64,000 bases of DNA from Lentzea sp. NBRC 105346. GTDB taxonomy: Bacteria > Actinomycetota > Actinomycetes > Mycobacteriales > Pseudonocardiaceae. The stretch covers positions 310,001 to 374,000 of the forward strand of contig NZ_BSTQ01000001.1 in NCBI RefSeq assembly GCF_030269605.1, given 5' to 3'. The translations under genes were made by a program, and so were the position numbers. The notes beneath the pieces were generated by a model, which worked only from the letters and a program-made list of their open reading frames with translations, did no database searches and was not told where the DNA came from. This document shows positions 18,768 through 38,226 of the stretch, in pieces. The first letter of the stretch is position 1. Every line of letters starts with the position of its first letter.

Positions 18768-21576
18768 TCAGAACGCGCTGTGCCCGGCGAGTACCCTGCT
18801 CACCTCGCCGTGGCGGCCGAGCGGAGCGCCCGCCCACAGGTACCTGCGGAGCAGTTCCGCCACCTCGAGCCCGGTCCGGCGTTCGAACTTGGCCTGCAAT
18901 GCCAGACCGAGATGCAGACTGCAGCGGGGATCGTCGGGCGCCAGCTCGTGGGCCCTGCGCAGCACGGACACGGCTTCGTCGAGGTCGGCTGGCTCGGCCG
19001 GTTGCTCGTACAGCAGCTGGCTCAAGTGGTACGAGGCCTCACGAAGCCCTTCGGTGAAGCCGGCGCCGGTGGGGTCGTCGTTGTAGAGGTTGCGCGCCGC
19101 GCGCAAGAACCGGATCGCGTCGGGGATCCGGCCGAGTGCACGGCAGGCCAGCCCCATCGCCAGGTTCGCGAAAGGTGATCTCGTGCGCTGTTCTTCCGCC
19201 CTATCGGCCTGTATCGCGGCGAGCCGGTACGCGACGGCCGCACCCGCGGTGTCGAGCGTCGTGACCTCGGCCCGCACCGCGGCGAGTCTGGTGTGGTGCC
19301 AGAACACGCCGTCGTCGGCCGACGGGCCGCTTGCGACGATCTTCACGTCGGCCGAGGTCGAAGCCAGTTCCGCCCAGCGGTGATAGGTGATCCCGTCCAG
19401 GCCGCCGGCAGCCGCCCGGATCAGGTGGTCTGTGAGCAGGCCGCCCGGTACTCCCGGAGTCACCGGCTGCAGGGTGGCGGCACCCGACGGCCGTCCAGGG
19501 TTGGGCTGATCGAGGATCGTGACGAGGTTGGGTGCGTCCCCGGCCGGCTGGAAGGACGGATCGCAGAGATGCAGCACACCGAGCTGATCCACGCTGTGGT
19601 CGAGCAGACGACGGTGCTCGGCGGCGACCACGTCGGCGGGCAGACCTTCGGCGACAACGATCTCGTCGGCCGCGAACCCTTGGCGCATCAGGAATTGGCG
19701 CATGGAGTCGACCTGTGCGCCCTGCCCGGTTCCGATGAGCAGGGCGCGAGGTCTGCTCGATGCCGACGTTTCGGCCGCTGCCCGTGCCGGCGCGTAGTCG
19801 CGGGGCCATGGACCGGGGTCGGCGACCGAGGCGGCCGCGGTGAGCGCCTCCGCCACCACCGGGATTCGGTTCGCGGCCGCCGCCAGCACCGCGACGTCGA
19901 GCCACGCCCGCACGTCACCGCGATCGGCAGCCCTCGCACGCAACAGGTCCAGTGCCCCGGTCGCATCGCCGACGGCTTCGAGATGACGGGCGAGCAGACG
20001 GCGGCCGTTGGGCCAGCCACCGGCCTGGCATGCCGTCACGGTCAGTGGTCCGGGCGGCAACGGACGCCGGACCCGATCCGCCCGCCACAGCACCGCCGCG
20101 GGGAACGAGCCCCGCGGCAGGGCTCTCGCGGAGTCACCGAGGAGAAGCGCCGTCTGGGTGTCGTTCCGTCCGAAACTGGCCGTTATCTCCGCTAGTCGCC
20201 AGACCTGCGTGGCGAGCTGGGTCATGACAGTCGCGTCGTTGCGTGAGCCCGCGGCCAGCACAGATCCGTGATCTCTGATGCTCACGGCGATCAGCAACAC
20301 GCGGATCGTGCCGTCGGCGCGAAGTGATGCCGCGTAGTCCGGCGCCCAACCGGCATCGGGGAGCGGCGGAGTCGTGTCGGCGAAGGTGGTCAGCTCGCGC
20401 GCAGCGGCGCCGGAGTCGCCCATCGCAGCGAGTGCAAGGCCTCGATGGAGGTGTTGATCAGGGCCGGGCTCGAAGACGGCGTCGAGGACGTCCAGCGCGG
20501 ACGCGAACTCACCTGCGGCGAGCAATGCTTCGCCCGCGAGCGCCGCGCTCCCGCCGTCCGGGACGTCAGCAGCCGCGGCGAGCGTGATGGCCTCATGTGC
20601 CTCACGGACCGTGACGAGGAACGGTGCTGGATCGTCGAGCAGCCAGCCGACCTCGAGAAAGGCCCGCGCCATCTCGTCGTGCCGATGGAAGTCCAGCTCA
20701 TCGACCACAGCCATCGGGAGTGTGCGTGGGAAGTCGCCACCGCCCAGCTCCGGTTCCTGGCCCATGCGCGTCTCGCGTCGCACCTGGTCCGTGACGTACT
20801 CCGCGAGCTCGTCGAGGGTGACCAGGCCGTCCTTGACGCGGCCGCTGCCGTATCCGTCGGCGGCTTCCCGCATTCCTTCCAGGAGGAACCAGGTGAACAC
20901 GCCGTGGCCACCTCCCCACTTGACGTCCTCCAGCGACTGCTGTTCACGGCGTGCCGAGGTGAAGTACCCGATCCCGGGAGCCGACTCGCTGAGTACGCTC
21001 AGGTACCGGTTGAGAACTCTGGCGGAAAGCGGCGTCGTTGCCGGTGCCGGTCCGTCACACACCGGGCCCCCATACCGCAGACCCGCGCTGTGGCACGCGT
21101 CGGCGAGGATCACGACGCGCTTCGCCTGCACGTAGTGGCCTATGCACCGGGCGACTTCGTCCATCGGCAGGGCGGTGCCCCCGAGGTCGCGGAGATCGGT
21201 GTCGTGGGTCAGCAGGTACAGGGGCTGGGTAGCGCCTGCCAGGGTCCGGTGCGCCGTGGCAGGCGAAGTAGAGGAGCACGAGGTCCTCCGGTTTGGTGGC
21301 GGCGAGGAACACCCTGATCGCCCGTGTCACCTCATGGGTCGTCGCGTCCCCGTCAACCAGCAACCGGACCCGCTCGGCCGCGAAGCCGCCACCCGCCGGG
21401 GTCAGCAGGAAGTCGTACAAGGCCTGGGCGTCCTGATGAGCGAACTTGAGGGTGAGGTTGTCGTCCCGGTAGTCGGAGATCCCGACGATCACGGCCCACC
21501 GGTTCCCCAGAAGCCCGGCCACGTCGGCGTCGATGCGCATGGCGACGGCGTCGCGTGGAGCAGATAAGTCTGGCAT
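18768..21576 (-). pseudogene. Caspase-fold protease with TPR-like repeats, one-base frameshift
   Basis: The gene starts at 21576 after GGGGGAGCC and should give about 936 residues. The caspase domain is at 25-240, with catalytic H107 in YFACHG and Cys near residue 161 in ADACHSAG; helical repeats follow, then a second caspase-like module (RALLIGTGQGAQ... VLHLCDPSF) lacking the His/Cys pair, and TPR-like repeats at the C-terminus. The frames on either side of 21221-21224 differ by one base; removing one G from that GGGG run (CCCC on the coding strand) joins them. Both halves keep good coding character, so a sequencing error is plausible. It diverges from a second caspase gene 113 bases away. 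It would cleave protein substrates after oligomerisation. Confidence 0.8.
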
Positions 21577-21689
21577 CTCCGGCTCCCCCTACGAAAAAAT
21601 GCGTATACGGGCACTAAGTCCCTCGACCAGCGTGTGCGCTGAAGCGCAAGATAATTGCCGCTGTGATCGGCGACAGAGGGGTGCCAGCG
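21577..21689. promoter_or_regulatory. Divergent promoter region of two caspase genes
   Basis: These 113 bases separate the two divergent caspase-like genes and are AT-richer than the surroundings. A GATAAT hexamer at 21650-21655 is a possible -10 for the plus-strand gene, without a clear -35. The shared region suggests joint control. Confidence 0.4.
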
Positions 21690-23660
21690 ATGTCGAACGT
21701 GTATGCCTTGCTGGTCGGGATAGATAAATACCGGTCAAATGTGGGACATCTGCGCGGCTGCGTCAACGACGTCACCCGAATGCAGGAGTTCCTGACCGCC
21801 AGGGTGGGAGCTCGGCTCAAGATAAAAACTCTGCACAACGAGCAGGCCACCCGCGATGCGGTGATCGAACAGTGGCGAAGACACCTCGGCAAAGCCGGAC
21901 CTGGCGATGTGGCGATATTCCATATTGCCTGTCACGGTTCGCACGAGGACGTGCCGGACCGGTTCCGCCACCTTGAGCCGACCGGCCAGATGCAGACCCT
22001 GGTGTGCGCCGACAGCCGTGTGCCCGGTGTGCCTGACCTCGCCGACAAGGAGCTGTCGGTCCTGATCGACGAGGTGGCGGAACGGGGAGCGCACACCGTG
22101 GCGTTCGTCGACTCCTGTCACTCCGGGGGTGTGACCCGGGGGCCGGAGCCGTCCGTCAGCGTCAGGTCTGTTGATCCTGGTCCGAGCCGCACTGTTGGGT
22201 ATCTGACCCGTGAGGGCGTGCGTGACACCGCCGGCGGGGCGGCTGAGCCGGTTCACGTCGTGTTGTCGGCATGTCAGGGTGAGGAGACCGCCAAGGAACA
22301 GCTCGTTGACGGGCAGGTCCGCGGGGTGTTCAGCACGGCGCTGCTCAAGGCGTTGCAGAGCCTCGGTGCCGGTGCCACCTACCGCGAGTTGCTGACAGCG
22401 GCGCAGTGCGCTGTCGAGCAGCAGACCAGCGGCCAGGTACCCGTGCTGTACCCGGTGACGCTCGGCGGCATCGCGGACCAGCCGTTCCTGGGAGGAGCGG
22501 CGGCCAGGCCCCCGGCGGGATTCGTACTGCGCAACGTCGGGCACGACTGGGAGGTGGATGCCGGGCGCTACCACGGCATTCCCGCACCCGCCGACCACGG
22601 CGCCGTGGTGTTCGCCGCGGTCACGGGTGAGCATGAGGCGCGGCTGGCCGAGGTCACGGCGGTCGGTGGGGCCTCGTCGACGGTGAAGCCGGTGGGCTGG
22701 AGCCCCGATCCCGCCAAGCAGTATCCGGCGGTCATCGCCGATGTGCCGCTGCCCGCGGTGCGCGTGGTGATCGGTGGCCGTCGCGATGACGACCCCGACG
22801 CCCTGCGGAAGGTCGAGCAGGCGGTGCTGCATTCCGGACCTGGTGAGCGGCCGTCGGCCTACCTCCGCACGGTCCCGTCAGATGACCTGTCGGAAGGGCT
22901 CCGCCTTCGCGTGGTCGCGACGGATGGGGCCTTCCGCATCCTGAAGGGCGACGGGACCACTCCGGTCACCGCGGACGTGCCAGGGCTCACGGAGGCGAGC
23001 GCCCGCATCGTCGTCGCCCAGCTCGAGCACATCGCCCGCTGGCACTCGATCATGGATCTCGGCAACCCGGCCACCTCGCTCGTCGGCGCGGTCAAGATCG
23101 AGATCATCGCCGCGCGGCCGGGAGAGCAGGTGGCGCCGCTGGACGCGATGGCGATGACTCCGGACGAGCACGGCGAACTCCGCCTCGCCTATCGCCGGGG
23201 CGAGCACAGGTGGGAACCGCCGGCGGTGTTCGTGCGCCTGCGCAACACCTGGCACCGGCCGCTGTGGTGCGTGTTGCTGAACCTCACTGACAGGTTCCGC
23301 GTGCACCCCAACCTCTTCCCCGGCGGTCTCGTCGGGGACGGGCAGTCCGGTTTCGCGCTGCAGGGGAAGCGCATCACCGTCTCGCTGCCGCGTGGCCGGG
23401 ACAGCCGGCCCGGCGCGGAGGTGAAGGACTGGCTGAAGCTGCTCGTCGCCGAGGAACGGTTCGGCTCGCTCACGTTCGAGCTGCCGCCGCTGGGCGAGCC
23501 GGTGCGTGACGGTCTCCCTCACGACGTGCGCGGAGTGCTGGGCAGACTCGGTTTCCGGGCCACCAGCAGGGACTTCGACACCGAGATCTCCTCGGCGGGT
23601 GGTGGTGACTGGGCGACGGAAGTACTGCCATTGATCACGGATATCCCGACTGATTCATGA
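21690..23660 (+). CDS. Caspase-fold cysteine protease with C-terminal beta domain
   Basis: The 656-residue protein begins MSNVYALLVGIDKY, the classic peptidase C14 start. The catalytic dyad is intact: H82 in IACHGS and C143 in VDSCHSGG. The caspase domain covers 1-270. A middle region follows, and a beta-rich C-terminal part (about 520-600, with FVRLRNTW and VLLNLTDRFRV) resembles the DUF4384-type domain often fused to bacterial caspases. The ATG at 21690 has AGAGGGG upstream and fits the domain start better than the upstream ATG at 21663. No signal or membrane segment: it acts in the cytoplasm. A 192-base gap separates it from the GTPase genes. Confidence 0.88.
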   Translation: MSNVYALLVGIDKYRSNVGHLRGCVNDVTRMQEFLTARVGARLKIKTLHNEQATRDAVIEQWRRHLGKAGPGDVAIFHIACHGSHEDVPDRFRHLEPTGQMQTLVCADSRVPGVPDLADKELSVLIDEVAERGAHTVAFVDSCHSGGVTRGPEPSVSVRSVDPGPSRTVGYLTREGVRDTAGGAAEPVHVVLSACQGEETAKEQLVDGQVRGVFSTALLKALQSLGAGATYRELLTAAQCAVEQQTSGQVPVLYPVTLGGIADQPFLGGAAARPPAGFVLRNVGHDWEVDAGRYHGIPAPADHGAVVFAAVTGEHEARLAEVTAVGGASSTVKPVGWSPDPAKQYPAVIADVPLPAVRVVIGGRRDDDPDALRKVEQAVLHSGPGERPSAYLRTVPSDDLSEGLRLRVVATDGAFRILKGDGTTPVTADVPGLTEASARIVVAQLEHIARWHSIMDLGNPATSLVGAVKIEIIAARPGEQVAPLDAMAMTPDEHGELRLAYRRGEHRWEPPAVFVRLRNTWHRPLWCVLLNLTDRFRVHPNLFPGGLVGDGQSGFALQGKRITVSLPRGRDSRPGAEVKDWLKLLVAEERFGSLTFELPPLGEPVRDGLPHDVRGVLGRLGFRATSRDFDTEISSAGGGDWATEVLPLITDIPTDS

Positions 23661-23852: not shown

Positions 23853-26117
23853 ATGAGTGAGATCGCCAGCAGGATTGCCGCCGTCGTGCAGGCGCGCCAA
23901 AGTCGTTTGCCCGAGATTACGGCGGAGATGGCGACCTGGCGCAACGCGGATGAGGCAGTCGTCGCGCTGGACCGCGCCGTGACCGAACTCCGGCGCTACC
24001 CGGCGACGCCCGCTGAGGTGGCCGACCAGTTCGGTCTGGTGCGGGTGAAGGACGTGCGGCCCGCCATCAGCACGACCGTCGAGCACCTTCAGCGGGTGGA
24101 GGGCAGGTTCGGCAGGACCACGGTCAACATCGGGGTGAGCGGCAGCGCGCGGGTCGGCAAGAGCACGCTGCTGCAGACGATCTCCGGTCTGGCCGACGAT
24201 CAGATCCCCACCGGGTCAGGCATCCCGGTGACGGCCGTGCGCAGCCGCATCTATCACACGCCCGGCCGGCGCCGGGCGGTGCTGGAGATGCACGACTTCG
24301 ACAGCTTCCGCAGCGCCTACCTACAGCCGCGGCACGAGGAACTGGGTCTGCCCCCTGCACCGACGACCATGGCGGAGTACCGAGAGTGGCAATACCCGAG
24401 CGCGGGCGAGCTCGAGATCAAGAACGCGTACGCGTCGTTGCTCGAGGACCTCCGCGACATGCAGGCGTCTTTGCCTTCCTACGAAGCACTCCTGGAACGG
24501 GCCGGCCGTCCCGTCGAGCTCCTCGGCGACGACTTCGACCGGCTGCGCGAGTACGTGGCCTACCCGAAGGTCGAGGAAAAGCGCGCGCCGGACGTGGCGC
24601 GCAAGTACCTCGCCGTGCGGGATGCCCGGATCGAATGCCCCTTTCCGCACGCCGACGTCGGTGAGATCGCCTTCTGCGACATGAAGGGGTTCGGTGAGGT
24701 CACGGTCGACGCGGACAAGCACCACGTCGCGGGACTTCAGCACGAGGTGGACGCCGTTGTGCTGGTGAAACGGGCAGCGGAGGGGGAGGCGTACTGGAAG
24801 GAGTCCGACGTGGCCACGGTCCGCGTCCTCGACGAGGCGCGCGGGTTCGTGAGCCGGCGGCGCGACTTCGTGCTCATCGCGTTGAACATCGGCGCAGCCT
24901 CGGACGCGCTGGCCGAGAGCCTCCGCGACGACGTGCTGCGGCGGGTCAACGAACGGAAGGACGGGCTGCACCACCGGGTGCTCGAGGTGGACGCGAAAGA
25001 CCGGGCGGACGTCTCGGCCCGGCTGCTCGGCCCGGTGCTCGGACATCTCGCCGACCGGCTTCCGGTGATGGACGGGGAGGTGCTCGCCGGCACGAGGAGG
25101 CGGGCCGCGGTAGTACGCGAAGACCTCGTCGGACTGGCCACCGAAGTGCGGGCGATGCTCAAACAGGTACGCGGACTGACGGTCGGCGCCGCGGAGGACG
25201 TGTACGGGCGCGCTCGCGAGATGCACAAGAGCCTCGCGGTCGCGCTGCACTCGCTGCTCGCCGAGCTGCGGGAGCGCTCGGTGCGGCAGGACCCCGACTA
25301 CGCGGCCGCTGTGGAGGCCGTCTACGAGGACGTTCTCTCCTGGGTACGCGACGGGTTCGGGTATGGCGAGGCCGAGTGGTGCGAGGAGGCCGTGCGAAGC
25401 ATGATCCGCGACGGGGGAGCGGGCCTGTTCGCGACCACGGAGCTCAGCCGGATCCGAGTGGAGATCAGCAGGCGCTTCGCCCAGCTCGACCTGTTCTTCC
25501 ACGCACGGGTGGAGGAGGTCTGGCGACAGGTGGCCGATGGGCTCGCCGGCGAGTTGCACGGTGTGCTCGGCGGAAGTATCGCCGAGGAAGCGTTGGAACG
25601 ACTGATGAAGCTCGCAGCCGACGCGGCGGAGCCGTGCGAGGTCATGGAGACGTCGCTCGGCGAACTGCTGGGTCTGCGGCTCGACTACCGCACGCAGGTG
25701 CATCCACGGGTGCGGCCGGAGCTCGACTCGCTGAACCTCCAGGTGCGTGATCCTGTCACCGGGCACGAGTCCTTCCAATTCACGGTGGCGCCAACGCGGG
25801 ACGGCGCCGAGGAGCTCCTGCAGATCATCTGCGAGCTCGCCGAGCAGTCCGCCTTCCGCATCCGCGTCGCACTGCTGAAGGAATCGGTGCTACCGGGCCA
25901 GGTGTTGTTCGCGGCCGTCGAGCACTTCACCGACGTGCTGATCCGTTCCGGCGCCGCGGAACGGGAGATCCGGCAGTTCGCGCGGTCCTACCGGGACGAG
26001 CTGTGGCCCGGCGTGTTCCAGGGCCTCGACGGTGCCGACGCCCGTGTCGCCCGTGTCGCGCGGGCAGCCGACGCGCTGCTGGCGGTCACCGAGGAGCTGG
26101 AAGGGTACAGATCATGA
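23853..26117 (+). CDS. Dynamin-like large GTPase
   Basis: The 754-residue protein has an N-terminal helical part (1-90) and a P-loop GTPase domain with GSARVGKST at 97-105. A conserved Thr (TGSGIPVTAV region) serves as switch I candidate and a CDMKGFGE switch II lies near 270-278. The rest (400-754) is long and helical, as in dynamin-type stalks. No membrane helix is visible. Dynamin-family proteins remodel or guard membranes, and in bacteria several take part in stress and phage responses. It is translationally coupled by an ATGA overlap to a second GTPase gene, suggesting a hetero-pair. It is the first gene of an operon reaching 31355. Confidence 0.82.
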   Translation: MSEIASRIAAVVQARQSRLPEITAEMATWRNADEAVVALDRAVTELRRYPATPAEVADQFGLVRVKDVRPAISTTVEHLQRVEGRFGRTTVNIGVSGSARVGKSTLLQTISGLADDQIPTGSGIPVTAVRSRIYHTPGRRRAVLEMHDFDSFRSAYLQPRHEELGLPPAPTTMAEYREWQYPSAGELEIKNAYASLLEDLRDMQASLPSYEALLERAGRPVELLGDDFDRLREYVAYPKVEEKRAPDVARKYLAVRDARIECPFPHADVGEIAFCDMKGFGEVTVDADKHHVAGLQHEVDAVVLVKRAAEGEAYWKESDVATVRVLDEARGFVSRRRDFVLIALNIGAASDALAESLRDDVLRRVNERKDGLHHRVLEVDAKDRADVSARLLGPVLGHLADRLPVMDGEVLAGTRRRAAVVREDLVGLATEVRAMLKQVRGLTVGAAEDVYGRAREMHKSLAVALHSLLAELRERSVRQDPDYAAAVEAVYEDVLSWVRDGFGYGEAEWCEEAVRSMIRDGGAGLFATTELSRIRVEISRRFAQLDLFFHARVEEVWRQVADGLAGELHGVLGGSIAEEALERLMKLAADAAEPCEVMETSLGELLGLRLDYRTQVHPRVRPELDSLNLQVRDPVTGHESFQFTVAPTRDGAEELLQIICELAEQSAFRIRVALLKESVLPGQVLFAAVEHFTDVLIRSGAAEREIRQFARSYRDELWPGVFQGLDGADARVARVARAADALLAVTEELEGYRS

Positions 26118-27265
26118 CCGCTCCCGCCGAGGGAACGTCACTGCGGATCGGCATCATCGGGCCGACCAGGATCGGCAAGACCACGCTCGTCAACACATTG
26201 CTGCGCGCTGGGGAGACCGCGTTCGAGCAGACGGACGTCCGGATGCGGTGGGCCGACCACATGACGGAGCGGAAGATCCTGGAGCAGCGCGCCGAGCTGG
26301 AGGGCTGGCGGCTGAGCAAGCAGTTCAACCCCGGCGCGCTCCGCGGCACAGATGACGCGTTCGTGTTCCGCTTCGTGCTGGAGACCGGCTTCGGAGGACT
26401 GTCCATGCGGCTGGACGCGATGGACTACCCAGGCGGACTGGTGAACCCCGCACATCGGCTGGGCCGCGAGGCGGAGTGGGAGGAGTGCCGTGCGTTCATC
26501 GCGAACTCCACTGTCCTCGTGGTCCCCGCCGATGCCGCGATGCTGATGGAGACCGCGGGCGACGAGAACCGGCATCACCTGCCCGCCATCCTGACCACTC
26601 CCGAGATCGAGGATGTCGCACGGGACTGGGCACGCAACCGGCATCAGCACCGCCACGAGCCCGCGCTCGCGATCGTGTGCCCCGTCCGCACCGAGTCGTA
26701 CTTCGCTGACAACGGTGGCCGGAGAGATCGTTCGGACGAACTGCTCGAGCACGTGCGCGAGGTCTATCGGGACGTGCTCAAGGTGATCAGGGCGGAGGCC
26801 CCGGCGACCCGGATCCACTACTGCCCAGTCGATACCGTGGGCCCGGTGGAGTTCCTCTCCGCCCGGTGGTTGCCCGATGTCGCGGGCGGACACCCGCACT
26901 TCTCGGCGAAGTACCGGGTGCGCAGGCGGCCCGACGGGCATCCGCCGGAGATCAGCACGGCGGGGATCGACGACGTACTCGTGCTGCTCGCCCGCCATCT
27001 GATCGACCTCCGTCATCGTGAACTCGACGTCACGGCTCGGCACCACCGCACGAGCGCGAACGACTGGGCCGCGCAAGCCGTTCAGGACCTCGGCGCCATG
27101 CGCAACGTCTGGAACACGGTCTCGGGCAAACGGCGAAAGGCGCGGCGGATGGCGGAAGCGAAGCGGCTGGAGGCAGTGTCGGCCGAGGAACAGGTGAGTG
27201 GTCTGGCCGGCCAGCTCCTGCGGCTTGCGGAGCTCGGACTCGGCCCACGGCACCGCGAACTGTGA
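26114..27265 (+). CDS. Second P-loop GTPase, partner of the dynamin-like protein
   Basis: The 383-residue protein starts at the ATG inside the upstream stop codon. The Walker A GPTRIGKTT lies at 16-24 and a DYPGG switch II at 104-108. The VCPVRTESYF strand near 195 sits where the base-specificity motif would be, though it does not match NKxD. Its C-terminus is basic and helical (GKRRKARRMAEAKR), which could contact membrane or the first GTPase. Fold and context suggest a TRAFAC-type GTPase. It is followed after ten bases by the membrane-anchored partner gene. Confidence 0.82.
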   Translation: MTAPAEGTSLRIGIIGPTRIGKTTLVNTLLRAGETAFEQTDVRMRWADHMTERKILEQRAELEGWRLSKQFNPGALRGTDDAFVFRFVLETGFGGLSMRLDAMDYPGGLVNPAHRLGREAEWEECRAFIANSTVLVVPADAAMLMETAGDENRHHLPAILTTPEIEDVARDWARNRHQHRHEPALAIVCPVRTESYFADNGGRRDRSDELLEHVREVYRDVLKVIRAEAPATRIHYCPVDTVGPVEFLSARWLPDVAGGHPHFSAKYRVRRRPDGHPPEISTAGIDDVLVLLARHLIDLRHRELDVTARHHRTSANDWAAQAVQDLGAMRNVWNTVSGKRRKARRMAEAKRLEAVSAEEQVSGLAGQLLRLAELGLGPRHREL

Positions 27266-27275
27266 GGGCGGCGCC

Positions 27276-28107: not shown

Positions 28108-31098
28108 GTGGTCGTGGTGAGTGCGGGGACAGCGGTTCCGTTCATCGGCAGGAGCGCCGAGCTCGCGCAACTGGACCGGATGCTCGGCCTGGCCGCGAAA
28201 GGCCAGCCCCGCACGGTGTTCGTGTGGGGTGAGGCAGGGGTCGGCAAGAGCAGGTTGCTGGCCGAGTTCGCGGACCGCGCTCGCACGGCGGGTGCGTGCG
28301 TGCTCAGCGGGTCGTGTGTCCCGCTCGGCAGGGGCGAGTTCCCGTACGCGCCGCTCATCGACGCGCTCCGGCGGCTCGTCAGGGAGACCGGCGAGGAGGC
28401 GCTGCGAGAACTCGGCGGACAGGCGTTCGTCGACCTGGCCAACCTGGTGTCCGACTCCGCCGCCGTGGTGCCGCCTGCCAGTGAGCCGACGTCGCAGCAG
28501 AGGGTTTTCGGCGCGGTGTTGCGGTTGCTCGACCGGCTCGGCGCCGACGGCCCGGTGCTGGTCGTGTTCGAGGATCTGCAGTGGGCTGATTCGTCCACAT
28601 TGGATCTGCTCGCGTATCTGGCGACCGCGCAGTCCGACGAGCGGGTGCTGCTCGTGTGCACCTACCGCTCGAACGATCTCCAGCCACGGCACCCGCTACG
28701 TGCCCTGGTCGCCGAGCTGGGCCTGGCCAGGAAGATTCAGCGCATCGAACTTTCCCGGTTCACCCGCACCGAACTACGACTGTTCCTCATAGCAGCCACG
28801 AGGACGGATGCCGGGCACGACCTCGTCGAGCGTGCCTTCGAGCTCTCCGACGGCAACGCGTTGTTCGCCGAGGAGCTCGTCATCGCGGACGCGCTCGGCT
28901 CGCCGGACGGCACGTTGCCGCGGTCGTTGCGGGAGCTCATGCTGACCAGGTTCGAGATGCTCGGCGACAGCGCCTGCGACGTCGTCAGGGTGGCCGCGAC
29001 AGCGGGCAGACGGGTGAGCCATCGCCTCCTGTCCGCGGTGAGCGAGCTGGACGAGCGGCAGCTGACCGCCGCGTTGCGCGAATGCGTGGCGCATCACGTG
29101 CTGGTGGCTGACCTGAGTGATCAGACCTACGTCTTCCGGCACGCGTTGCTGCGCGAAGCGGTGCACGACGACCTCCTGCCGGGTGAGCGCGTGCACCTGC
29201 ACCGGTGTGTGGCAGGGGCGCTCGCCGCCGACCCAGGCCTGAGCTACGCCGAGGATCTGACCGTCGCCGCGGAACTGGCCTATCACTGGTACGAGGCCGG
29301 TGTGTTCGCCGAAGCTCTAGCCGCGGCTGTCCCCGCCGGGGACACCGCGATGCGGGTGCGCGCTTTTCAGGAAGCCGAACAGCAGTACCAGCGCGCACTC
29401 GTCCTGTGGTCCAAAGTGGACGAGCCGGAGCTGGTGGCGCGAGTGACGAGGGAGCGCCTGCTGGGCTCGGCCGCGGATGCCGCGCGGTGGTCCGGTCGTG
29501 TCGACCTGGCGGTGGAGCTGGTGCGCAAGGCGCTGGCCGAGCCCGGCGTCGCGAGCAGGCCGCTGCGGGCGGGCGAACTGCAGGAGCGTCTCGCCAACTG
29601 CCTGTGGGAGGCAGGGGACAGCCGCAGCGCTCAGCGCGTGTACGCCGAGGCGGGCCTGCTGCTGGCGAATGAGCCGCCCTCCGCTGTCGCCGCGAGAGTG
29701 CTGGCCGGTAGTGCCACCGCGGACCTGCGCACCGGCCGTTACACACAGGCGCTGCGGCTCGGGAACGAGGCCGTCGAGATGGCCCGTATGGTCGGCGCCA
29801 AGCCAGAAGAGGGAAGGGCGCTCAACACCGTCGGCGTGGCTCTCACGTTGAGCGGGCACGCTGACGACGGAGTGCGGGCGTTGCAGGAGGCGATGCGCAT
29901 CGCGGACGCGGCGGACCAGCTGGAAGACCTGTTGCGCGCCTATGGGAACCTGGCTTTGGTGCTAGAGAACTCCGGTCGGCTGACGGAGGCCGTGTCGGTC
30001 GCGCTGACAGGCCTCGAACGCGCCCGCGGCTACGGTGTCGAGCACACCCGCAACGGCGCCCTGCTCGCCAACAACGCCAGCGCGGCGCTGGTGCCGCTGG
30101 GGCGCTGGGACGAAGCCGCCGAGATCATCGGGAACGTGCTGCTCGACCGTCCGTCGAGAGAAAGCCTCTACCCGCGTCTCACACTCGCCGAGATCTACGT
30201 GGCACGCGGCCGGTTCGACGAGGCGGATCGCCTGCTCGCCGCCGTCCGTGCCGCGGGAGGCAGCATCACGGAGCCGCAGTTCGTCGGTTCGCTGCGGTGC
30301 TGCGAGGCCGAGCGGGCGCTCTGGCTCGGCGAGCACGTCGCCGCGCACGATGCGGTGGCCGCAGGGCTACGGGTCGTGCGTGAGGTCGAGAACGTCGTCG
30401 TCCTCTTGCGGCTCTACGTGCTGGGACTGCGGGCCGAGGCCGACGATTCGGTGCGCCGGCGCGCACTGCGCAGGGGAGCGCACGCCGGCGAGGCCGCGGT
30501 GACATCGTTTGTGGACGAGTTCGGTGCGCTGGCCGTCGCCGACACCCTGCCCGAGGTCGCGGCCCTGCGACTGCAGTGCTCGGCGGAGATCCTCAGGATC
30601 GGCGGAGACGTGGATCCCTCGCGGTGGGCTGAGGTCGCGCAGGCGTGGGAGTCGCTCGACCGACCTTACCCTGCGGCGTACGCGCACTGGCGCGAGGCGG
30701 AATGCGCGGCCGCGGGCAAGGATCGGGATCGGGCGGCGCTGGCGGCCCGGCAGGCGCGTCGCGTCGCCGCCGTCCTGGACGCGCGTCCGTTGCGCACCGA
30801 GGTCGAGGCACTGGCGCGGCACGCGCGGCTCGATCTCGACGAGCCCGGCGTCGTGGTTCGCGCGCCGGAGCGGGCGCCCGACCCGTTCGGGCTCACCGCC
30901 CGCGAACGGGAAGTGCTGCGCCACCTCGGCCGAGGACATTCGAACCGGAAGATCGCTCGTGCGCTCTTCATCACGGAGAAGACGGTCAGCGTGCACGTCT
31001 CCCACCTTCTGATGAAGCTCGCCGTCCCCAGTCGCGGTGAGGCGGCCGCTGTCGCCCACCGGTTCCACCTGCTAGATGACGACGAAGACAGGAGTTGA
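28108..31098 (+). CDS. LAL-type LuxR regulator with STAND ATPase
   Basis: The 996-residue protein is a large ATP-binding LuxR-family regulator. The N-terminal ATPase begins PFIGRSAEL with Walker A GEAGVGKS at 41-48 and Walker B LVVFEDLQWAD near 150-161. A long TPR-like helical middle part would sense a ligand or partner, and a LuxR helix-turn-helix lies at about 930-985 (LTAREREVLRHLGRGHSN). It starts at a GTG seven bases after the tail-anchored protein gene; GTG codons at 28114 and 28117 are alternatives. As a member of the GTPase operon it probably switches the system on when its sensor part is triggered. Confidence 0.9.
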   Translation: MVVVSAGTAVPFIGRSAELAQLDRMLGLAAKGQPRTVFVWGEAGVGKSRLLAEFADRARTAGACVLSGSCVPLGRGEFPYAPLIDALRRLVRETGEEALRELGGQAFVDLANLVSDSAAVVPPASEPTSQQRVFGAVLRLLDRLGADGPVLVVFEDLQWADSSTLDLLAYLATAQSDERVLLVCTYRSNDLQPRHPLRALVAELGLARKIQRIELSRFTRTELRLFLIAATRTDAGHDLVERAFELSDGNALFAEELVIADALGSPDGTLPRSLRELMLTRFEMLGDSACDVVRVAATAGRRVSHRLLSAVSELDERQLTAALRECVAHHVLVADLSDQTYVFRHALLREAVHDDLLPGERVHLHRCVAGALAADPGLSYAEDLTVAAELAYHWYEAGVFAEALAAAVPAGDTAMRVRAFQEAEQQYQRALVLWSKVDEPELVARVTRERLLGSAADAARWSGRVDLAVELVRKALAEPGVASRPLRAGELQERLANCLWEAGDSRSAQRVYAEAGLLLANEPPSAVAARVLAGSATADLRTGRYTQALRLGNEAVEMARMVGAKPEEGRALNTVGVALTLSGHADDGVRALQEAMRIADAADQLEDLLRAYGNLALVLENSGRLTEAVSVALTGLERARGYGVEHTRNGALLANNASAALVPLGRWDEAAEIIGNVLLDRPSRESLYPRLTLAEIYVARGRFDEADRLLAAVRAAGGSITEPQFVGSLRCCEAERALWLGEHVAAHDAVAAGLRVVREVENVVVLLRLYVLGLRAEADDSVRRRALRRGAHAGEAAVTSFVDEFGALAVADTLPEVAALRLQCSAEILRIGGDVDPSRWAEVAQAWESLDRPYPAAYAHWREAECAAAGKDRDRAALAARQARRVAAVLDARPLRTEVEALARHARLDLDEPGVVVRAPERAPDPFGLTAREREVLRHLGRGHSNRKIARALFITEKTVSVHVSHLLMKLAVPSRGEAAAVAHRFHLLDDDEDRS

Positions 31099-31100
31099 CC

Positions 31101-31355: not shown

Positions 31356-31913
31356 TCAGTTCAGGGTGATGACGATGCCGAGTCGTTGGGCGCGCAGGAC
31401 AGTGGTGAGCCGGTCCGAGGTGCCGAGCTTGCGGTACAGGCGCTCCTGGTGCTTGGTGACCGTGCGGGCGGAGACGTCGAGCCTGCGCGCTATCGCGTCG
31501 GCGGTGAGGCCTTCGCACAGCAGCTGGAGCACGTCGAGCTCACGCGGGGTGATGCCGAGATCGGCGGGGCGCGACCCGCCCCGCCGGATCCTGGTGACGA
31601 CCAGGTGCGGTTCGCCGATCGACCGGGTCAAGGTTTCCCACGCGTCGAGCTGAGCCTCGTCCTCGCCCTGGACGTGGGACTCGACCAGCCGGGCCAGCTG
31701 TGCGGACACCGAGTGCGACGCGCCGCCCCAATGCCACTCGCCGAGGCGGAAGGTGAGCACGCCTAGCGCTTGGCCGACCAGGACGAGCGCGCGGAGCAGG
31801 GTGGGGTCGCCGCGCGTCGCGGTGCACAGCAGGCCGAGGGTCGTACGGGTGACGGGACCGCCCAGCATTTCGGCGAGGTTGCCGTTGACGGCCGTGCGCA
31901 GATGAGGTTCCAC
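31356..31913 (-). CDS. Small LuxR-family transcription regulator
   Basis: The 185-residue protein starts at a GTG with CGGAG eight bases upstream. Residues 1-110 resemble the end of a STAND-type regulator sensor part, and a LuxR helix-turn-helix covers about 120-175 (ITPRELDVLQLLCEGLT, TVTKHQERLYRKLG). No receiver or ATPase motif is present, so it may be a trimmed relative of the LAL regulator. Its stop codon abuts the stop of the convergent 84-residue protein gene without a gap. It diverges from the third caspase gene, so it may control it through the inverted repeat at 31935-31950. Confidence 0.82.
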   Translation of the reverse strand: MEPHLRTAVNGNLAEMLGGPVTRTTLGLLCTATRGDPTLLRALVLVGQALGVLTFRLGEWHWGGASHSVSAQLARLVESHVQGEDEAQLDAWETLTRSIGEPHLVVTRIRRGGSRPADLGITPRELDVLQLLCEGLTADAIARRLDVSARTVTKHQERLYRKLGTSDRLTTVLRAQRLGIVITLN

Positions 31914-31934
31914 GGTGTGACTCCGGTTCGACGA

Positions 31935-31950: not shown

Positions 31951-32023
31951 CGTTGCGAAGCACCGGTTCGGGGTCATGGGGAGAACTTCGTATTTCGCAG
32001 GGGCAGATGCCTTAGGGGGAGTG

Positions 32024-34414
32024 GTGACTCGGAGAGCTTTGATCATCGGGCCGGTGTCGGACGGCCTCAACGGCGTGGTCAACGACGTCGAGATGATGAG
32101 CGAGGTGTTGGAGGAACGCGGTTTCGAGGTACGCCGATGTGTGAATGACGAGGCGACCAGGATCGGGATCCTTTCCGCCTACGACAGGCTGATCGCGGAC
32201 ACCTCCGCCGGTGACGCGGCGTTCGTCGGCATCAGCTGTCACGGCGGTCTCGCCGCCGCGCCGGACGGCGTTCCCGGCGACCGCGACTACCTGCAGTTCC
32301 TGTCGCCGACCGACATCGAGGCATCGACGCCGGACGACTTCCGCGGCCTGATGAGCATCGAGTGGTCCGACCGGCTCGCTCAGCTCACCGCCAAAACTCC
32401 CAACTGCACGGCGCTGATCGACGCTTGTCACTCGGCCCATATGTTCCGCGACGCGGGGCTGCGCACGAAGTCCCTGTCGCACATCACATATGTCGACCTG
32501 GTCGCACATGAAGCCCGGCTGCGGGCCGAAGGGCTGCGGGTGCGGCTGTTGGACCCCGAGAGCAACCCCAACGCGGTTCGCCTGGTCGCCTGTGGTGCCC
32601 GGCAGCGTGCATTCGAACGCATCAACCAGCAGGGGAAGGCCGTCGGGATCATGACCGAGGCGTTCTACCTCGCGTTGCGGGAGGCGAAGGGACTGCCGGT
32701 CAGCTGGACCACGCTCGTGCAACGCATGCGCACCAGGACCATGGCGCTCGGGTCGGGACAGCGCGCGGAGGCCGAGGGGCCGGCGGACCGGCTCCTCTTC
32801 GACACCGTGCCGGGTTCGCCGATGCTGACGCTCGAGGTCGCCGTGGCCGGGTCGAAGAGGGTTCGGCTACCGGGTGCTCCGCTGCTCGGCTTCGGACCGG
32901 GGGACGAGTTCGCGATCATGCCGGCGACGGAGGCCGAGGTGGTGGACTCGAAGACGATCGGCATCGCGACGGTGGACCGCAGTGGCGGTGTCGCAGCCGA
33001 GGCCGTCGTGGTGTTCCAGAACGGGCACACCGCAATCCCCGCAGGGGCGCGGGCACACCCGATCAGCATGTCGGCCCGTCGCTGGCCGGTGCTGGTGCGC
33101 GGCGACGGTGCGGTCGCCGATCGACTCCGGGCTGCCACGGCCTTGTCGCCAGTGCTGCGCGAGCCCGGCCCGGATGACGCGGAACCGCTGGCGGTTGTCG
33201 ACGTCAACGGCATCCTGTCGCTGCACGACGCCGTTGGAGACGTGGTTCCGCCCGTCAACGCCGACCATGCGGGAGAAGTCCGAACGCTCGCCAACCTCAC
33301 ACAGCTGGCCCGAGCCGCGACATTGCGGGTGTTGTCGCCCGCCGAGAACGAGGCGTTGCCCGATGAGTTCACGATCACCTGGGGACTGGTCGAGAACGGC
33401 GTCGCCCGGCCCTTGCCCAGATCGGGTGCGTTAGTGCACACCGGTGAGCTGGCATTTGTGAAGGTGCGCAACGACCGTCCCCAGATCGTCTACTGCCACC
33501 TGATGGACCTCGGCGTGGCCGGTGCGGTGCGCCAGCTCCTGGCAGCGGATCCCTCCGGCGTCGCGCTGTCCCCAGGCGAGGAGTACGTGTTCGGTGCGAA
33601 CGCGGACCACGAACTGGTTGGCAAGTCGTTGACGTGGCCGGCCGGGACGGCGAACGCCGTACCTCGTCCGGAGACCATCCTCGTGCTGCTGGCAACGCAA
33701 CCCGAAGACCTCTCGGTGCTCCAGCAGCCAGGAGCGCGCGGACGCGGATCGTCGCTCATGCGGTTGCTGACCCAGGCGGCGCACGGCGGAGCCCGCACCC
33801 TGCTCGCGGGCCGGGCCTGGGCGAACATGCGTTTCGCGGCGCACCGCATCGACTTCCAGCTGAGCCCCTTGCCCGCGGCACCGGTGGAACGGTCGGCCTT
33901 CCTGTTCACGGACCGGCTCGACAGGTCCGTGCGGCTGACCACTAGCGGCGGGAGCGGACACGTCGTCGTGCGACTGCACGAGTTCGAAGGATCTGACGGT
34001 GAAGCTCTACGGCTGGACACACTGGTGATTACCGGTGACGGCGTCCGCGCGAAGACCGTGACGCTGCCGTCACAGGACCGCGTGATCTACGAGGGACCGG
34101 TCCGGGATCACCTCGACATCGCGTTCTGGGCAGGGCCGGTCGCAACGGATGACCGCGGTCTCGCCCAGTTGCTCACGCTCCCGGACGTCGATGTGGCACG
34201 GCCTGCGGGCCGGCATGCCGCAGAGGTGGCGGAACTCCGCTTGGTCGCGCGCACGATCGACGCCGCGCACGACGAACTGTCCACTGTGGTGCCTCCCAGA
34301 GTCGCGCTCTGCCGAGCGACCTTCCTGGCCGAGGACGACTTCGGTGCCGGCCGCCATCCGGCGACCGGGCGGATCAGCGTGGGCGGTTACTCGTTCTCGT
34401 TCTCCATCGACTGA
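32024..34414 (+). CDS. Third caspase-fold cysteine protease
   Basis: The 796-residue protein opens TRRALIIGPVSDGLNGVVND, a C14-type start. The dyad is intact: H73 in GISCHGG and C135 in IDACHSAH. The protease domain runs to about 260. A middle region follows, and the C-terminal half is beta-rich and may hold a DUF4384-like domain and a further beta sandwich (about 640-796). GTG at 32024, close behind TTAGGGGGAG, is preferred because it places the first strand at residue 2; the ATG at 31976 would add 16 odd residues. It lies 17 bases upstream of the CHAT gene, so the two proteases are probably made together. Confidence 0.87.
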   Translation: MTRRALIIGPVSDGLNGVVNDVEMMSEVLEERGFEVRRCVNDEATRIGILSAYDRLIADTSAGDAAFVGISCHGGLAAAPDGVPGDRDYLQFLSPTDIEASTPDDFRGLMSIEWSDRLAQLTAKTPNCTALIDACHSAHMFRDAGLRTKSLSHITYVDLVAHEARLRAEGLRVRLLDPESNPNAVRLVACGARQRAFERINQQGKAVGIMTEAFYLALREAKGLPVSWTTLVQRMRTRTMALGSGQRAEAEGPADRLLFDTVPGSPMLTLEVAVAGSKRVRLPGAPLLGFGPGDEFAIMPATEAEVVDSKTIGIATVDRSGGVAAEAVVVFQNGHTAIPAGARAHPISMSARRWPVLVRGDGAVADRLRAATALSPVLREPGPDDAEPLAVVDVNGILSLHDAVGDVVPPVNADHAGEVRTLANLTQLARAATLRVLSPAENEALPDEFTITWGLVENGVARPLPRSGALVHTGELAFVKVRNDRPQIVYCHLMDLGVAGAVRQLLAADPSGVALSPGEEYVFGANADHELVGKSLTWPAGTANAVPRPETILVLLATQPEDLSVLQQPGARGRGSSLMRLLTQAAHGGARTLLAGRAWANMRFAAHRIDFQLSPLPAAPVERSAFLFTDRLDRSVRLTTSGGSGHVVVRLHEFEGSDGEALRLDTLVITGDGVRAKTVTLPSQDRVIYEGPVRDHLDIAFWAGPVATDDRGLAQLLTLPDVDVARPAGRHAAEVAELRLVARTIDAAHDELSTVVPPRVALCRATFLAEDDFGAGRHPATGRISVGGYSFSFSID

Positions 34415-34431
34415 TTTGCGGAGGTGTTGGG

Positions 34432-37400
34432 ATGGCTGGTACATCGGTCGAAACCCTGCCCGGTGGCCTGATCGACCGCATCACGTCGGGGGGCAGGGTG
34501 GCCGTGACGACACAGGCCTGGCGCCGGTTCGCCTGGGACACCAACTGGATGGCCCTGCCCGACGGCACCGCGCGCCCCCTGACGGAGGTGGGCGAACAGG
34601 TGCTGGACCGGCCGGGTCTGGACGGCATCGACTCCGCAGGCGTTGAAGAGTGGATCATCGGCTGCCTCGTGTCAGAACTCCGCGGATGGCGAGCCACGCT
34701 GCCCCAGTACGCCTTCGTGCAGACGCCGGAGCTCGGGGGGATGGCGCTCGACATGGCGTCGGAAGTGTTGGTGGAGGCGCAGCGGCGAACCGCTGAGCGG
34801 CCGGACCTGTCGGGGTTCGTGCATCTGCTCGCGGCAGATCTGGGGAAGAGGGCGTGGCGCCACGACGTCGCCGAGGAGCAGTGGGAGCTCGCTCGCCGCA
34901 GGCTCGCGGGAGACGCAGTGGGGCAGGCGGTAGCGTGGCTCGTGCGGGGCGACTGGCATGCGGCTCCGTTCACCTCGCCGCTCAACTGGAACTGTGCGCT
35001 CGAGCAGATGAGCGCGTCCGTCGGCAACGAGCTCCCGGACGTCGTCGAGGCGGCCGAGTTCGATGGCACGAAGGCGGACGTGGCGGTGGCCGAGGTCGCG
35101 TACGGTGAGGCCGCTCTGCTGTACGAGAGGGCAGGAGATCGCGCCGGACTGGCCGCCGTCGAACTCCGCCGCAGCTATCTTGCTCTGCAGGCCGGTGACG
35201 TCGCTCAGGCGTTGAAGATGGCAGAACACGCTCGAGTCGTGTTCGAACAGGAAGGCCGGTGGCTGGACGCCACGGTGGCCGCGACACACGTGGCGTTGGC
35301 CGCGATCACGAACGACCGGGCTCCCAAGGACTTCGAGCCTGGCCCGGTGCATGAGTCGGTGGGCCACGCTGCGATGTTCGGGCGAGGGCTGCTCTGTGTG
35401 CGCATGGCACGGCACTGGGCAGGAAAGGGACAGCAACCGGAACGCGCTCAGGCCGTGTTGGGGCTGGCGCGGCGGCTCTGGAAGAGCCTCAACGAGCGAG
35501 ACCTGCACCTGCGCACGATCGTCGACAATGGCGAGATCGCCGCCTCGCTCGGTCGAGTGGCCGCTGCGCGGGTCGCACTGCAGGAAGCTCTGGAGGCCAG
35601 CGCACAGCCATCGGACGCCCCGAAGGGAGTCTTCGACCCGCAGCGAACTCGGAAAGCGTTTCTGGCCGCACGCATGCACATGCTGGCCAACATGATCGGC
35701 GACGAGACGGGCATGGAACGAGCGAGCCGGATCCTGCGCGACACAGTCGAGCCGTTGCGCACGGAAATGGACGGCATGTCCGACGGCCAGCGCACGATCG
35801 CCGAGTGGTTGCTGAGCCTTGCCGATACCTTGACCACGACCGTCGCTGGTCTGCTCTACCGGGCTCGCGCGGCTCAGATGCGGGGTGATGCCTCGGCTGC
35901 CGCCGAACTGTTCGCAGAGGCTCGTGCCAGAGCGCGGCAAATGCCGATCGAGCAACGAGACCAGAACGAAGCCATGGTCATGGCGTACGAGGGTGACAAC
36001 GCGGGTGCCTCGGACGTGTTCGAGCGCCACGTGACGCGGGCCTTGCGGGGTGTCCCGGCCGCCAGCACGGAGGCGAGGATGCTGCATGTGCAGGCAATGG
36101 ATTTTCAAGTCGTGGTTGAGAACTCGCAGCGTGCACGGTTCCACCGAGACGCTCTCACTGGAGTGCATCCGTGGTGGGCAGGGTTGGGGCCGGCTTGGAA
36201 GCATCTCGGGCTGGAGGGCAGGCTCCTCGCTCTGGAGAACCGCCTTCCCGAGGCGAAGAACACCATGGACCTGGCGCTGGCGGACGTCGAACTCGTGCGT
36301 GCCAGGCTACGACCGGACGACGCGAAGAGTTCATTGTTCGCACTGAAAGACGTGCAGGACCTTTACCTCGACGGGATCCGGCTCGCGTTGCGGATGGGCG
36401 ACGAGCAGGCCGCGTTCTCGTACGCCGAGCGCGCCAGGGCCCGCGCGTTGCTGGACCTGATGACCGCCAACGAAGAGCTGGACACCACCGGCCTGCCGGG
36501 AGACCTCGTGACGCGGTGGAGAGCCGCGAGCGCCGAAGTGGCGCTGGCCCAGTCACGGCTGGGAAAGGCAGGTGAAGAAGGCCTGCCCGAGCACCGCCTG
36601 GGCACGTTGAGACAGCTTCTCACCACGGCGCTCGACTCCTTGGACGCGGTCGAAACCGAGCTGCGGCAGGTAGATCCGGGGTACTGGCGGGCGGTGAACC
36701 CGCAGGCGGATGTCACCGGTCTGGACATGGTATCCGGCGCGCTGCCGGCGGATGCCGCGCTGATCCAGTACGTGATGGGAAGCACGGATGTCATGTGCTG
36801 GGCCGTGACAGACGGCGGAATGGTCGCGTCGAAGCAGTTCACTGTGGACCGTGGACTGGTTGATCGGCTCGTGGACGAGGTCCTGGCCGCCTGCACGACG
36901 GGAGGTGACTACCTGCCCGCGGCCCAGCGTCTGGCCAAGCTGCTGGTGGAGCCGTTCGACGAGGTGATCGAGCAGTGTGGCTCTTTGTTCGTCGTACCTG
37001 GTGGCGCGACCATGCGACTTCCGTTCGCCGTACTGCCTTGGCGCGGTGAGCCGCTCGGTGCGGCACAGCCGATCTCGGTGTTGCCGAGCGCGAGCATGCT
37101 TTGCCTGCCACAGCGGGCTCGGACCGGGAACGGCCACGCACTGGTCGTCGGCAACCCGCAGGCGATGTCCTGGAGACCAGGCCCGGACCAGCCTGCCGTG
37201 GCGCTCTCGTCACTGCCTGGCGCCGAGAGCGAAGCTGTTGCCGTGGCGCGAGTGTTGGGTGACGTGGAGCCGTTGATCGGGCCGGACGCCACGCTTGATC
37301 GGGTGTTGCCACGGCTGCCGGAGGCGTCCGTGGTCCACCTGGCCACCCACGGCATCCTGGCCGCGGACGCTCCTCTGGCGTCGGCGATCGCGTTGGCGGG

Positions 37401-37809
37401 TGGTGCGCAGCTGACGGTCGGTGCCCTTGTCGGGCAACAGTTGTCCGCTGATCTCGTCGTGCTGAGCGCCTGCCACACCGGCACCGGTGCTGCAGTGCGC
37501 GGCGATGAACTGCTGGGCTTCGGCAGGGCCCTGCTCGCCGCGGGAGCACGGGCGGCTGTCGTCACCTCTTGGGCGGTGAACGACACGTCTGCGGCTCTCT
37601 TGATGACGGAGTTCCATCGTCGCCGAGTGGCCGGTGCGTCCGATCTGAAAGCGTTGTGGCAGGCCTGTAGGTTTCTCAGGACGTTCGATGGAGAGGATGC
37701 CGCGGCGTCACAACGCGTCCGTGACCTAGGTGCGACGGAACACGAAGGTACTCTGTACAACCATCCCCACCACTGGGCCCCGTTCACGATCGTCTCGATT
37801 GGACAGTGA
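34432..37809 (+). CDS. TPR-CHAT protease
   Basis: The 1125-residue protein has a long helical-repeat region (about 160-730) of tetratricopeptide style and a C-terminal CHAT domain (about 790-1125). The CHAT catalytic pair is intact: H973 in VHLATHG and C1014 in LSACHTG. TPR-CHAT proteases relatives include the craspase protease Csx29 and eukaryotic separase; they cut a partner protein once the repeats are engaged. The gene has GCGGAGG before its ATG and no effector-binding motif that would name the trigger. The N-terminal 150 residues (with a WRRFAWDTNW segment) are unassigned. It is followed by a small unknown gene after 93 bases. Confidence 0.9.
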   Translation: MAGTSVETLPGGLIDRITSGGRVAVTTQAWRRFAWDTNWMALPDGTARPLTEVGEQVLDRPGLDGIDSAGVEEWIIGCLVSELRGWRATLPQYAFVQTPELGGMALDMASEVLVEAQRRTAERPDLSGFVHLLAADLGKRAWRHDVAEEQWELARRRLAGDAVGQAVAWLVRGDWHAAPFTSPLNWNCALEQMSASVGNELPDVVEAAEFDGTKADVAVAEVAYGEAALLYERAGDRAGLAAVELRRSYLALQAGDVAQALKMAEHARVVFEQEGRWLDATVAATHVALAAITNDRAPKDFEPGPVHESVGHAAMFGRGLLCVRMARHWAGKGQQPERAQAVLGLARRLWKSLNERDLHLRTIVDNGEIAASLGRVAAARVALQEALEASAQPSDAPKGVFDPQRTRKAFLAARMHMLANMIGDETGMERASRILRDTVEPLRTEMDGMSDGQRTIAEWLLSLADTLTTTVAGLLYRARAAQMRGDASAAAELFAEARARARQMPIEQRDQNEAMVMAYEGDNAGASDVFERHVTRALRGVPAASTEARMLHVQAMDFQVVVENSQRARFHRDALTGVHPWWAGLGPAWKHLGLEGRLLALENRLPEAKNTMDLALADVELVRARLRPDDAKSSLFALKDVQDLYLDGIRLALRMGDEQAAFSYAERARARALLDLMTANEELDTTGLPGDLVTRWRAASAEVALAQSRLGKAGEEGLPEHRLGTLRQLLTTALDSLDAVETELRQVDPGYWRAVNPQADVTGLDMVSGALPADAALIQYVMGSTDVMCWAVTDGGMVASKQFTVDRGLVDRLVDEVLAACTTGGDYLPAAQRLAKLLVEPFDEVIEQCGSLFVVPGGATMRLPFAVLPWRGEPLGAAQPISVLPSASMLCLPQRARTGNGHALVVGNPQAMSWRPGPDQPAVALSSLPGAESEAVAVARVLGDVEPLIGPDATLDRVLPRLPEASVVHLATHGILAADAPLASAIALAGGAQLTVGALVGQQLSADLVVLSACHTGTGAAVRGDELLGFGRALLAAGARAAVVTSWAVNDTSAALLMTEFHRRRVAGASDLKALWQACRFLRTFDGEDAAASQRVRDLGATEHEGTLYNHPHHWAPFTIVSIGQ

Positions 37810-37902
37810 CCGGCGGGCTGCCGCTACGTGGTTCTCCGTATTTCCCTCGCAACCGGGCTCACGGATGCTGGCAGCTCAAGGGATTGCCCGAGGGGAGACG
37901 TG

Positions 37903-38226
37903 ATGGCGCTCGACGACCTGATTGTTCCGGTGGTGGCGGAGAAGCTCGCGAAGTTTGGTCCCGGCGAAGGCGGCAAGGCCGCACAGATCAACTACAGCGT
38001 GCCGCAGCCGGGCGCTCACTCCTGCGATCGAATCGTGGAGCTGGACTTCGACCAGGGCTGGTTGTCCGATGAGGCGCGCGTGGCCGGCAAGTCGCTGCGG
38101 GAACTCGGCGTGATCGAAGGCGACGAGCGTCGCGTGGTGGTAAACACGGAGAAGCAGACCAAGTTCTACCGACAGACGTTGCCGGCGACGGCACGGCCAT
38201 CGCTGCGGCTTGTGATCCGCGAGTAG
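37903..38226 (+). CDS. Small unknown protein after the CHAT gene (107 aa)
   Basis: The ATG at 37903 follows GGGGAGACGTG. The 107-residue protein starts with an amphipathic helix ([16 protein letters not shown]) and continues in beta-type strands, with one Cys (C41). It is basic toward the end. No signal or family is recognised. As the last gene of the caspase-CHAT run it may be a target or regulator of the proteases. Confidence 0.6.

Follow-up and report, generated by a model that had tools for sequence, protein, structure and literature searches.

Introduction

The gene island at positions 18768 to 38226 of a 64-kb stretch of DNA from the soil-type actinobacterium Lentzea sp. NBRC 105346 (contig NZ_BSTQ01000001.1, positions 310,001 to 374,000; the whole stretch, here called the window, sits in a 9.39-Mb genome) raises the question of whether its caspase and CHAT proteases, its pair of GTPases, its tail-anchored protein and its LAL regulator work together as one system, as an earlier note on this DNA had proposed. 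We observed that the island is composed of two modules: LAL, caspase 812 and CHAT form a conserved neighbourhood (module 1), and a dynamin-like GTPase, a DO-GTPase2-like GTPase and a tail-anchored protein form a conserved operon (module 2). Taken together, the LAL-caspase-CHAT genes and the GTPase pair look like a self-destruct or defence circuit, and we came across no name for it as a single system. We give an about even chance to the reading that the locus joins the two separable modules into one switch-controlled CHAT-caspase circuit for defence or regulated death, where the mechanism and the phenotype are what we infer from the genes.

Genes of the island

The genes are as follows, with lengths in amino acids (aa):

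18768..21576, minus strand: caspase-TPR gene, frame-disrupted; membership not shown
21690..23660, plus strand: caspase 665, intact C14 domain (Pfam); membership uncertain
23853..26117, plus strand: GTPase1, 754 aa, P-loop GTPase, dynamin-like by its homologues, with a long C-terminal part
26114..27265, plus strand: GTPase2, 383 aa, DO-GTPase2/YcjX-like, from its homologues
27276..28100, plus strand: tail-anchored protein, 274 aa, third gene of the GTPase operon, with a C-terminal hydrophobic stretch
28108..31098, plus strand: LAL-type STAND regulator, 996 aa, with AAA_16, TPR and GerE (LuxR helix-turn-helix, HTH) by Pfam; bridge between the modules
31356..31913, minus strand: short gene for a LuxR/GerE HTH protein, perhaps what remains of a regulator
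31976..34414, plus strand: caspase 812, N-terminal C14 domain (Pfam) and a conserved long C-terminal region
34432..37809, plus strand: CHAT protease, 1125 aa, CHAT domain at 829-1121 (Pfam, 4.8e-51)
37828..38226, plus strand: open reading frame (ORF) of 132 aa, candidate gene

On the plus strand, GTPase1 and GTPase2 overlap (-4 bp), and the gaps that follow are 10 bp from GTPase2 to the tail-anchored gene, 7 bp from there to LAL, 877 bp from LAL to caspase 812, 17 bp from caspase 812 to CHAT and 18 bp from CHAT to the 132-aa ORF.

The earlier note had counted four caspase/CHAT proteases with an intact His/Cys pair, and this holds for three of them. Caspase 665 (ORF 21663-23660, likely start ATG 21690) matched Peptidase_C14 (PF00656) at 1.7e-20 with 74.1 bits, and caspase 812 at 1.2e-13 with 51.7 bits, against a cut-off of 21.4; the CHAT protein matched PF12770 with 174.4 bits against a cut-off of 24. 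Their catalytic His/Cys motifs are IACHG/DSCHS, ISCHG/DACHS and LATHG/SACHTG, respectively. The minus-strand caspase lacks an intact domain, since the ORF with the Cys part and the TPRs (18768-21164) begins after the His part; the latter (FACHG) lies in ORF 21055-21576, in another frame, so that the gene is frame-disrupted as assembled.

The coupling that the note had read between the two GTPases agrees with their 4-bp overlap, its tail-anchored protein has the strongest hydrophobic stretch at C-terminal residues 240-258 of 274 (the topology is a predicted one), and its STAND-type LAL regulator displays the AAA_16 NTPase, TPR region and GerE-type HTH by which a LAL is recognised. The two small proteins that it listed fared unequally. 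The 132-aa ORF at 37828-38226 stays a candidate gene, without a family in the Pfam, PADLOC and NCBIfam scans. The 131-aa plus-strand ORF at 31258-31653, for which the same scans gave no convincing family, was rejected as a gene: the opposite strand encodes a LuxR/GerE HTH protein there (31356-31913, 1e-14), so that the real gene is probably on the minus strand and the plus-strand ORF is probably a wrong-strand reading. PADLOC recognises the caspases, and its matches to GTPase1 and to LAL (at most 24.3 bits) are weak; GTPase1 was rejected as the PADLOC protein mad8, at 15.7 bits and E 0.002.

Conservation of the LAL, caspase and CHAT genes

Full-length-type relatives of caspase 812 were found in 17 other genomes among the 390 of the family (18/390 with its own), most of them aligned over most of the length of caspase 812, and the His and Cys are invariant in an alignment of four sequences (four of the eight initially chosen; one had a stop in the chosen range). 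The searches for GTPase1, caspase 812 and caspase 665 were taken as covering the same 390 genomes, and all genome counts are lower bounds, as part of the first-pass candidates was scored: 2-3 per genome for these three proteins, at most 33 for LAL and at most 85 for GTPase2. A CHAT gene lies within 6 kb of the caspase-812 relative in 16 of the 17 other genomes. The exception is G409, with its caspase copy near the contig start, where the nearest CHAT among the matches listed is 9.5 kb off and closer ones are possible.

In 11 of these 17 genomes, the caspase and the closest homologue of the window LAL are no more than about 110 bp apart; this homologue scores 643-707 bits, that of G429 being split into two pieces of 394 and 279 bits; other scored LALs across the 25 searched genomes reach 414 bits at most. 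The six genomes in which the LAL homologue does not abut the caspase are G001, G500, G484, G562, G411 and G409. The operon of G429 runs on one strand as CHAT, a 493-aa protein, LAL and caspase, the genes being separated by small gaps or overlapping, and two long stretches of its LAL share 50% and 43% identity with the window LAL.

Caspase 665 was matched in 14 of the 390 genomes, own included. Its long relatives are in G537, G566 and G027 (44-45%), a partial one is in G591, and the others align over the caspase domain alone; in the three genomes with long relatives, a CHAT gene is the immediate neighbour of the caspase or stands 2.1 kb from it, and GTPase1 gave no match.

Besides these, the 493-aa protein between CHAT and LAL in G429 (L073 3215-4696) has a weak TPR match, and no counterpart of it was noticed in the window; ORFs near 493 aa also follow CHAT in L074 and L077, the likeness being one of length alone. 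In two genomes (L070 4775-9106 and L074 2286-7729), a 514-aa AAA+ ATPase is followed directly by a CHAT gene near caspase genes, and this is a further pairing of CHAT with a switch.

Conservation of the GTPase operon

The GTPase1 profile matched 20 of the 390 family genomes. A profile built from two GTPase1 sequences found 5 genomes among 296 of the class, and both counts include the window genome. Of the 23 genomes that have a GTPase1 match, 18 carry GTPase2 on the same strand no more than about 110 bp behind GTPase1; the remaining five are G364 and G370 (weak GTPase1 matches, kept in the set), G544, G561 and G289. Here L015 was taken to be G361 and L016 to be G542, each pair being counted once. 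A contig scan for GTPase1, which covered at least five loci and is not a census, gave Pseudonocardiales as the closest named homologues among the matches listed; these also include relatives in Dyadobacter and cyanobacteria, and the GTPase pair itself in Dyadobacter and Phormidium. A tail-anchored homologue stands after GTPase2 in seven aligned loci including that of Phormidium, the L016 copy being frame-broken, and no ORF of this type was found behind the pair in Dyadobacter.

The family assignments come from the homologues. Two GTPase1 homologues (L003 and L018) hit Dynamin_N with 2.3e-4 and 1.7e-4, which falls short of the curated cut-off, and the window GTPase1 has no Dynamin_N match in the Pfam scan. 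The GTPase2 homologues of Dyadobacter (29.3 bits) and Phormidium (28.9 bits) pass the DO-GTPase2 (PF19993) cut-off of 27 bits; six of nine family members match that model at E<=1, the window GTPase2 not being among them. Searches of solved structures with the GTPase1 and GTPase2 profiles gave weak matches, mostly to P-loop proteins. The tail-anchored family shares no Pfam family; the only match, to UPF0242 (0.0013), comes from the coiled-coil tail of the Phormidium protein.

The neighbouring gene families of module 2 were inspected in 14 of the 23 genomes. Beside GTPase1 were found a Ser/Thr kinase with beta-propeller matches in G238 and a Ser/Thr kinase in G289. The neighbours of module 2 include an NB-ARC/TPR STAND protein in G305, a DUF7507 protein in G348 and, in G544, a divergent protein with CHAT, AAA_16 and TPR, the latter two below cut-off. 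Elsewhere the neighbours are a HerA/DUF87-type ATPase further downstream (G599), a PAF-AH-type hydrolase (G412), a short-chain dehydrogenase (G699), a protein without family (G602) and housekeeping genes (L016 = G542). These varied neighbours indicate that the partners of module 2 are mixed, some of them of switch or effector types and others ordinary.

Two Actinokineospora-type loci (L015 = G361, and G359) carry a STAND-like NTPase, with nSTAND3 below cut-off, and share a protein of 371-378 aa that is 74% identical between the two. Both genes lie just upstream of the GTPase pair (L015 6072-9669, L042 12985-16522), and the shorter protein is SPFH-like by eye; these loci are possibly another form of the same system. 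In G289 (L013 4667-12225), where GTPase1 has no GTPase2 match, a WD40-like ORF stands opposite it, as do two small P-loop proteins carrying D[HY]RGG motifs, as judged by eye.

The kinases beside GTPase1 in G238 and G289 could also point to a developmental or envelope-stress regulon, in which LAL would regulate transcription and the proteases would act on proteins as the cells differentiate, without any part in immunity. That LALs regulate transcription in actinobacteria counts in the same direction; CHAT genes range from 0 to 23 per genome, and as many as 23 in one genome suggests roles beyond one defence system. Nevertheless, the patchy distribution (20/390 for GTPase1 and 18/390 for caspase 812, own included) and the shifting gene order fit accessory conflict genes better, and we consider such a regulon unlikely.

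Joining of the two modules

The neighbourhoods conserved among relatives go far beyond what random placement of genes would give. As for the join between the modules, a second joined locus was found in G001, a genome of the same genus, where a CHAT gene (1282-aa ORF), a caspase gene (822), GTPase1, GTPase2 and the tail-anchored gene stand in a row, in an order different from that of the window. Identities to the window proteins are 30% for CHAT (partial), 31% for the caspase (nearly full length), 37% for GTPase1, 36% for GTPase2 and 30% for the tail-anchored protein. Immediately upstream is a second CHAT gene, only distantly related, and one flank holds genes of the glycoside hydrolase and glycosyltransferase types, so that the surroundings are unlike those of the window. 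Under random placement, the probability P that both protease types fall within about 10 kb of GTPase1 in one or more of the other 22 genomes is about 0.003; for a single type the result is weaker, with 0.18 for a caspase in one or more genomes and 0.04 for a CHAT in two or more. This joined locus supports a combined system at the window locus, and so does the LAL, whose closest homologues abut the caspase elsewhere and which here lies 7 bp behind the GTPase operon.

Several observations weigh on the other side. Of the 23 genomes, 2 have a caspase no further than 10 kb from GTPase1, namely G000 (the window genome) and G001, and 21 have none; for CHAT the numbers are 3, again including these two, and 20, although both counts are lower bounds because several GTPase1 contigs end within 10 kb. 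No GTPase1 match was obtained by the family profile search in 15 of the 17 other caspase-812 genomes, and in one of the remaining two (G364) the match is weak and lies elsewhere in the genome. The joined loci seen are two, the window being one of them, and that of G001 has no LAL match. In the window itself, 877 bp and an opposite-strand gene separate LAL from caspase 812. Furthermore, the CHAT of G429 aligns with that of the window over just part of the catalytic (CHAT) domain, and the P of about 0.003 ignores the clustering of defence genes, so that its significance is overstated.

Since the modules are apart in most of the genomes examined, the island is to be seen as two separable modules, and one fixed ten-gene system was rejected. 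The claim of the earlier note for one system thus falls as a fixed set and survives as a combination at this locus; the finding that it had named as an argument against itself, proteases and GTPases regularly apart in relatives, describes the general rule, yet the joined form recurs in G001. The same separation would be expected if LAL-caspase-CHAT and GTPase1-GTPase2-tail-anchored were independent conflict systems that share a defence hot spot and do not cooperate. A tubulin/vWA/GTPase set on the minus strand, at 3.4-15.1 kb of the window, resembles published DO-GTPase systems, so that the region does gather such genes. However, the recurrence in G001 with a different gene order and the 7-bp spacing of LAL behind the GTPase operon argue for a connection, and we regard mere co-location as possible but doubtful.

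Neighbouring genes of the window

The minus-strand set, at 3427-15135, is a second likely conflict gene set, of which the following genes were recognised:

5256-6329, minus strand: 357-aa GTPase-like protein; CxxC, P-loop and DVAGED motif read from the sequence
9469-12624, minus strand: Tubulin_2 protein
12661-15135, minus strand: vWA protein

It also has proteins of 610 aa and 735 aa with hydrophobic stretches and no Pfam match. In composition it is reminiscent of the tubulin theme in published DO-GTPase systems of the GAP1-N2 kind, with GAP1 unrecognised there. In hhalign comparisons with the 357-aa protein, GTPase1 gave 2% and GTPase2 51%. The tail-anchored protein was also considered as a GAP1-N relative and rejected, as hhalign against the 610-aa neighbour gave 0.2%. 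A further minus-strand gene at 15310-16392 encodes a secreted trypsin-like serine protease by motif alone (AGHC, GASGGP), with no Pfam match at E<=0.01.

Comparison with known systems

NTP-switch-coupled proteolytic conflict systems are already known as a kind. No GAP1 partner was recognised in the island by the Pfam scan or in the tail-anchored family by Pfam at E<=10; Pfam contains GAP1 models. The nine GTPase2 sequences have a G3 motif D[YF]PG whose next residue is G, A, R, K or S instead of Glu, and so differ from the DO-GTPases in the conserved Walker B Glu, as we place it from the published account. The DO-GTPase/GAP1 conflict systems (Kaur et al. 2020, PMC7159879) are like the island in their GTPase pair, a partner with a transmembrane segment and exchangeable neighbours, and homologues of the window GTPase2 reach the DO-GTPase2 cut-off of Pfam. 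In contrast, the window GTPase1 is dynamin-like by its homologues and no DO-GTPase paralogue; the word "dynamin" is absent from that paper, and its GAP1-N2 section names no caspase or CHAT partner. Membership in the DO-GTPase/GAP1 systems was rejected on the missing GAP1 match, the G3 motif without Glu and the hhalign value of 0.2%. The EACC1-caspase systems (Kaur et al. 2020) are approached by caspase 665, which weakly matches NF047832; membership was likewise rejected, with 37 bits against a cut-off of 140 and no EACC1 partner recognised in the window scans.

With regard to CRISPR-linked proteases, the SAVED-CHAT and PCaspase of a type III-B system reportedly form a cascade in which CHAT activates the caspase. 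The window CHAT likewise has a caspase partner, which suggests a cleavage cascade. PMC11417357 cites Steens et al. 2024 and mentions SAVED-CHAT. No SAVED or CARF domain was detected on the window CHAT in the Pfam, PADLOC and NCBIfam scans, its long N-terminal part being without assignment, and no cas genes turned up among the window proteins scanned. Craspase, the type III-E TPR-CHAT protein, is also a CHAT with a long N-terminal part (PMC9935389, PMC9729208); the window CHAT differs from it in having no CRISPR partner seen, no TPR match at E<=0.1, and a caspase and a LAL as neighbours.

Proposed mechanism

If the two modules do cooperate, the tail-anchored protein would keep the GTPase pair at the inner membrane, and infection or envelope damage would be sensed by the pair, by the NTPase of LAL, or by both, working as nucleotide switches. 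Once switched on in this way, CHAT would in turn cleave and thereby activate the caspase, and the caspase would cleave cell proteins, leading to dormancy or death. LAL may either boost transcription of the gene set or be itself under proteolytic control; it would serve as a switch with a transcription output. The step from CHAT to caspase is modelled by analogy on the type III-B CRISPR cascade, and the combination of NTP switches with proteolysis is taken from Kaur et al. 2020 (PMC7159879). The STAND-like NTPases or kinases at other GTPase-pair loci are in line with the switch idea.

A wider version, which we put forward only tentatively, is a CRISPR-independent CHAT-caspase immune cascade with an exchangeable trigger: LAL in some genomes, the GTPase pair with the tail-anchored protein in G001, and both in the window, where LAL would bridge them. 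If true, it would resemble the inflammasome or apoptosome, with a nucleotide switch, an initiator protease, an executioner caspase and a transcription output.

Significance

No paper describing this gene set was found among the top-ranked results of the open-licence literature searched, and to our knowledge CRISPR sensing is the only input for which a two-step proteolysis from CHAT to caspase has been demonstrated. A conserved LAL-caspase-CHAT unit in which no CRISPR parts were recognised, and which can be joined to a GTPase pair, would show that bacteria connect initiator and executioner proteases to different NTP switches. It would also offer a small, defined gene set for asking whether cascades of this kind bring about defence or regulated death in filamentous bacteria.

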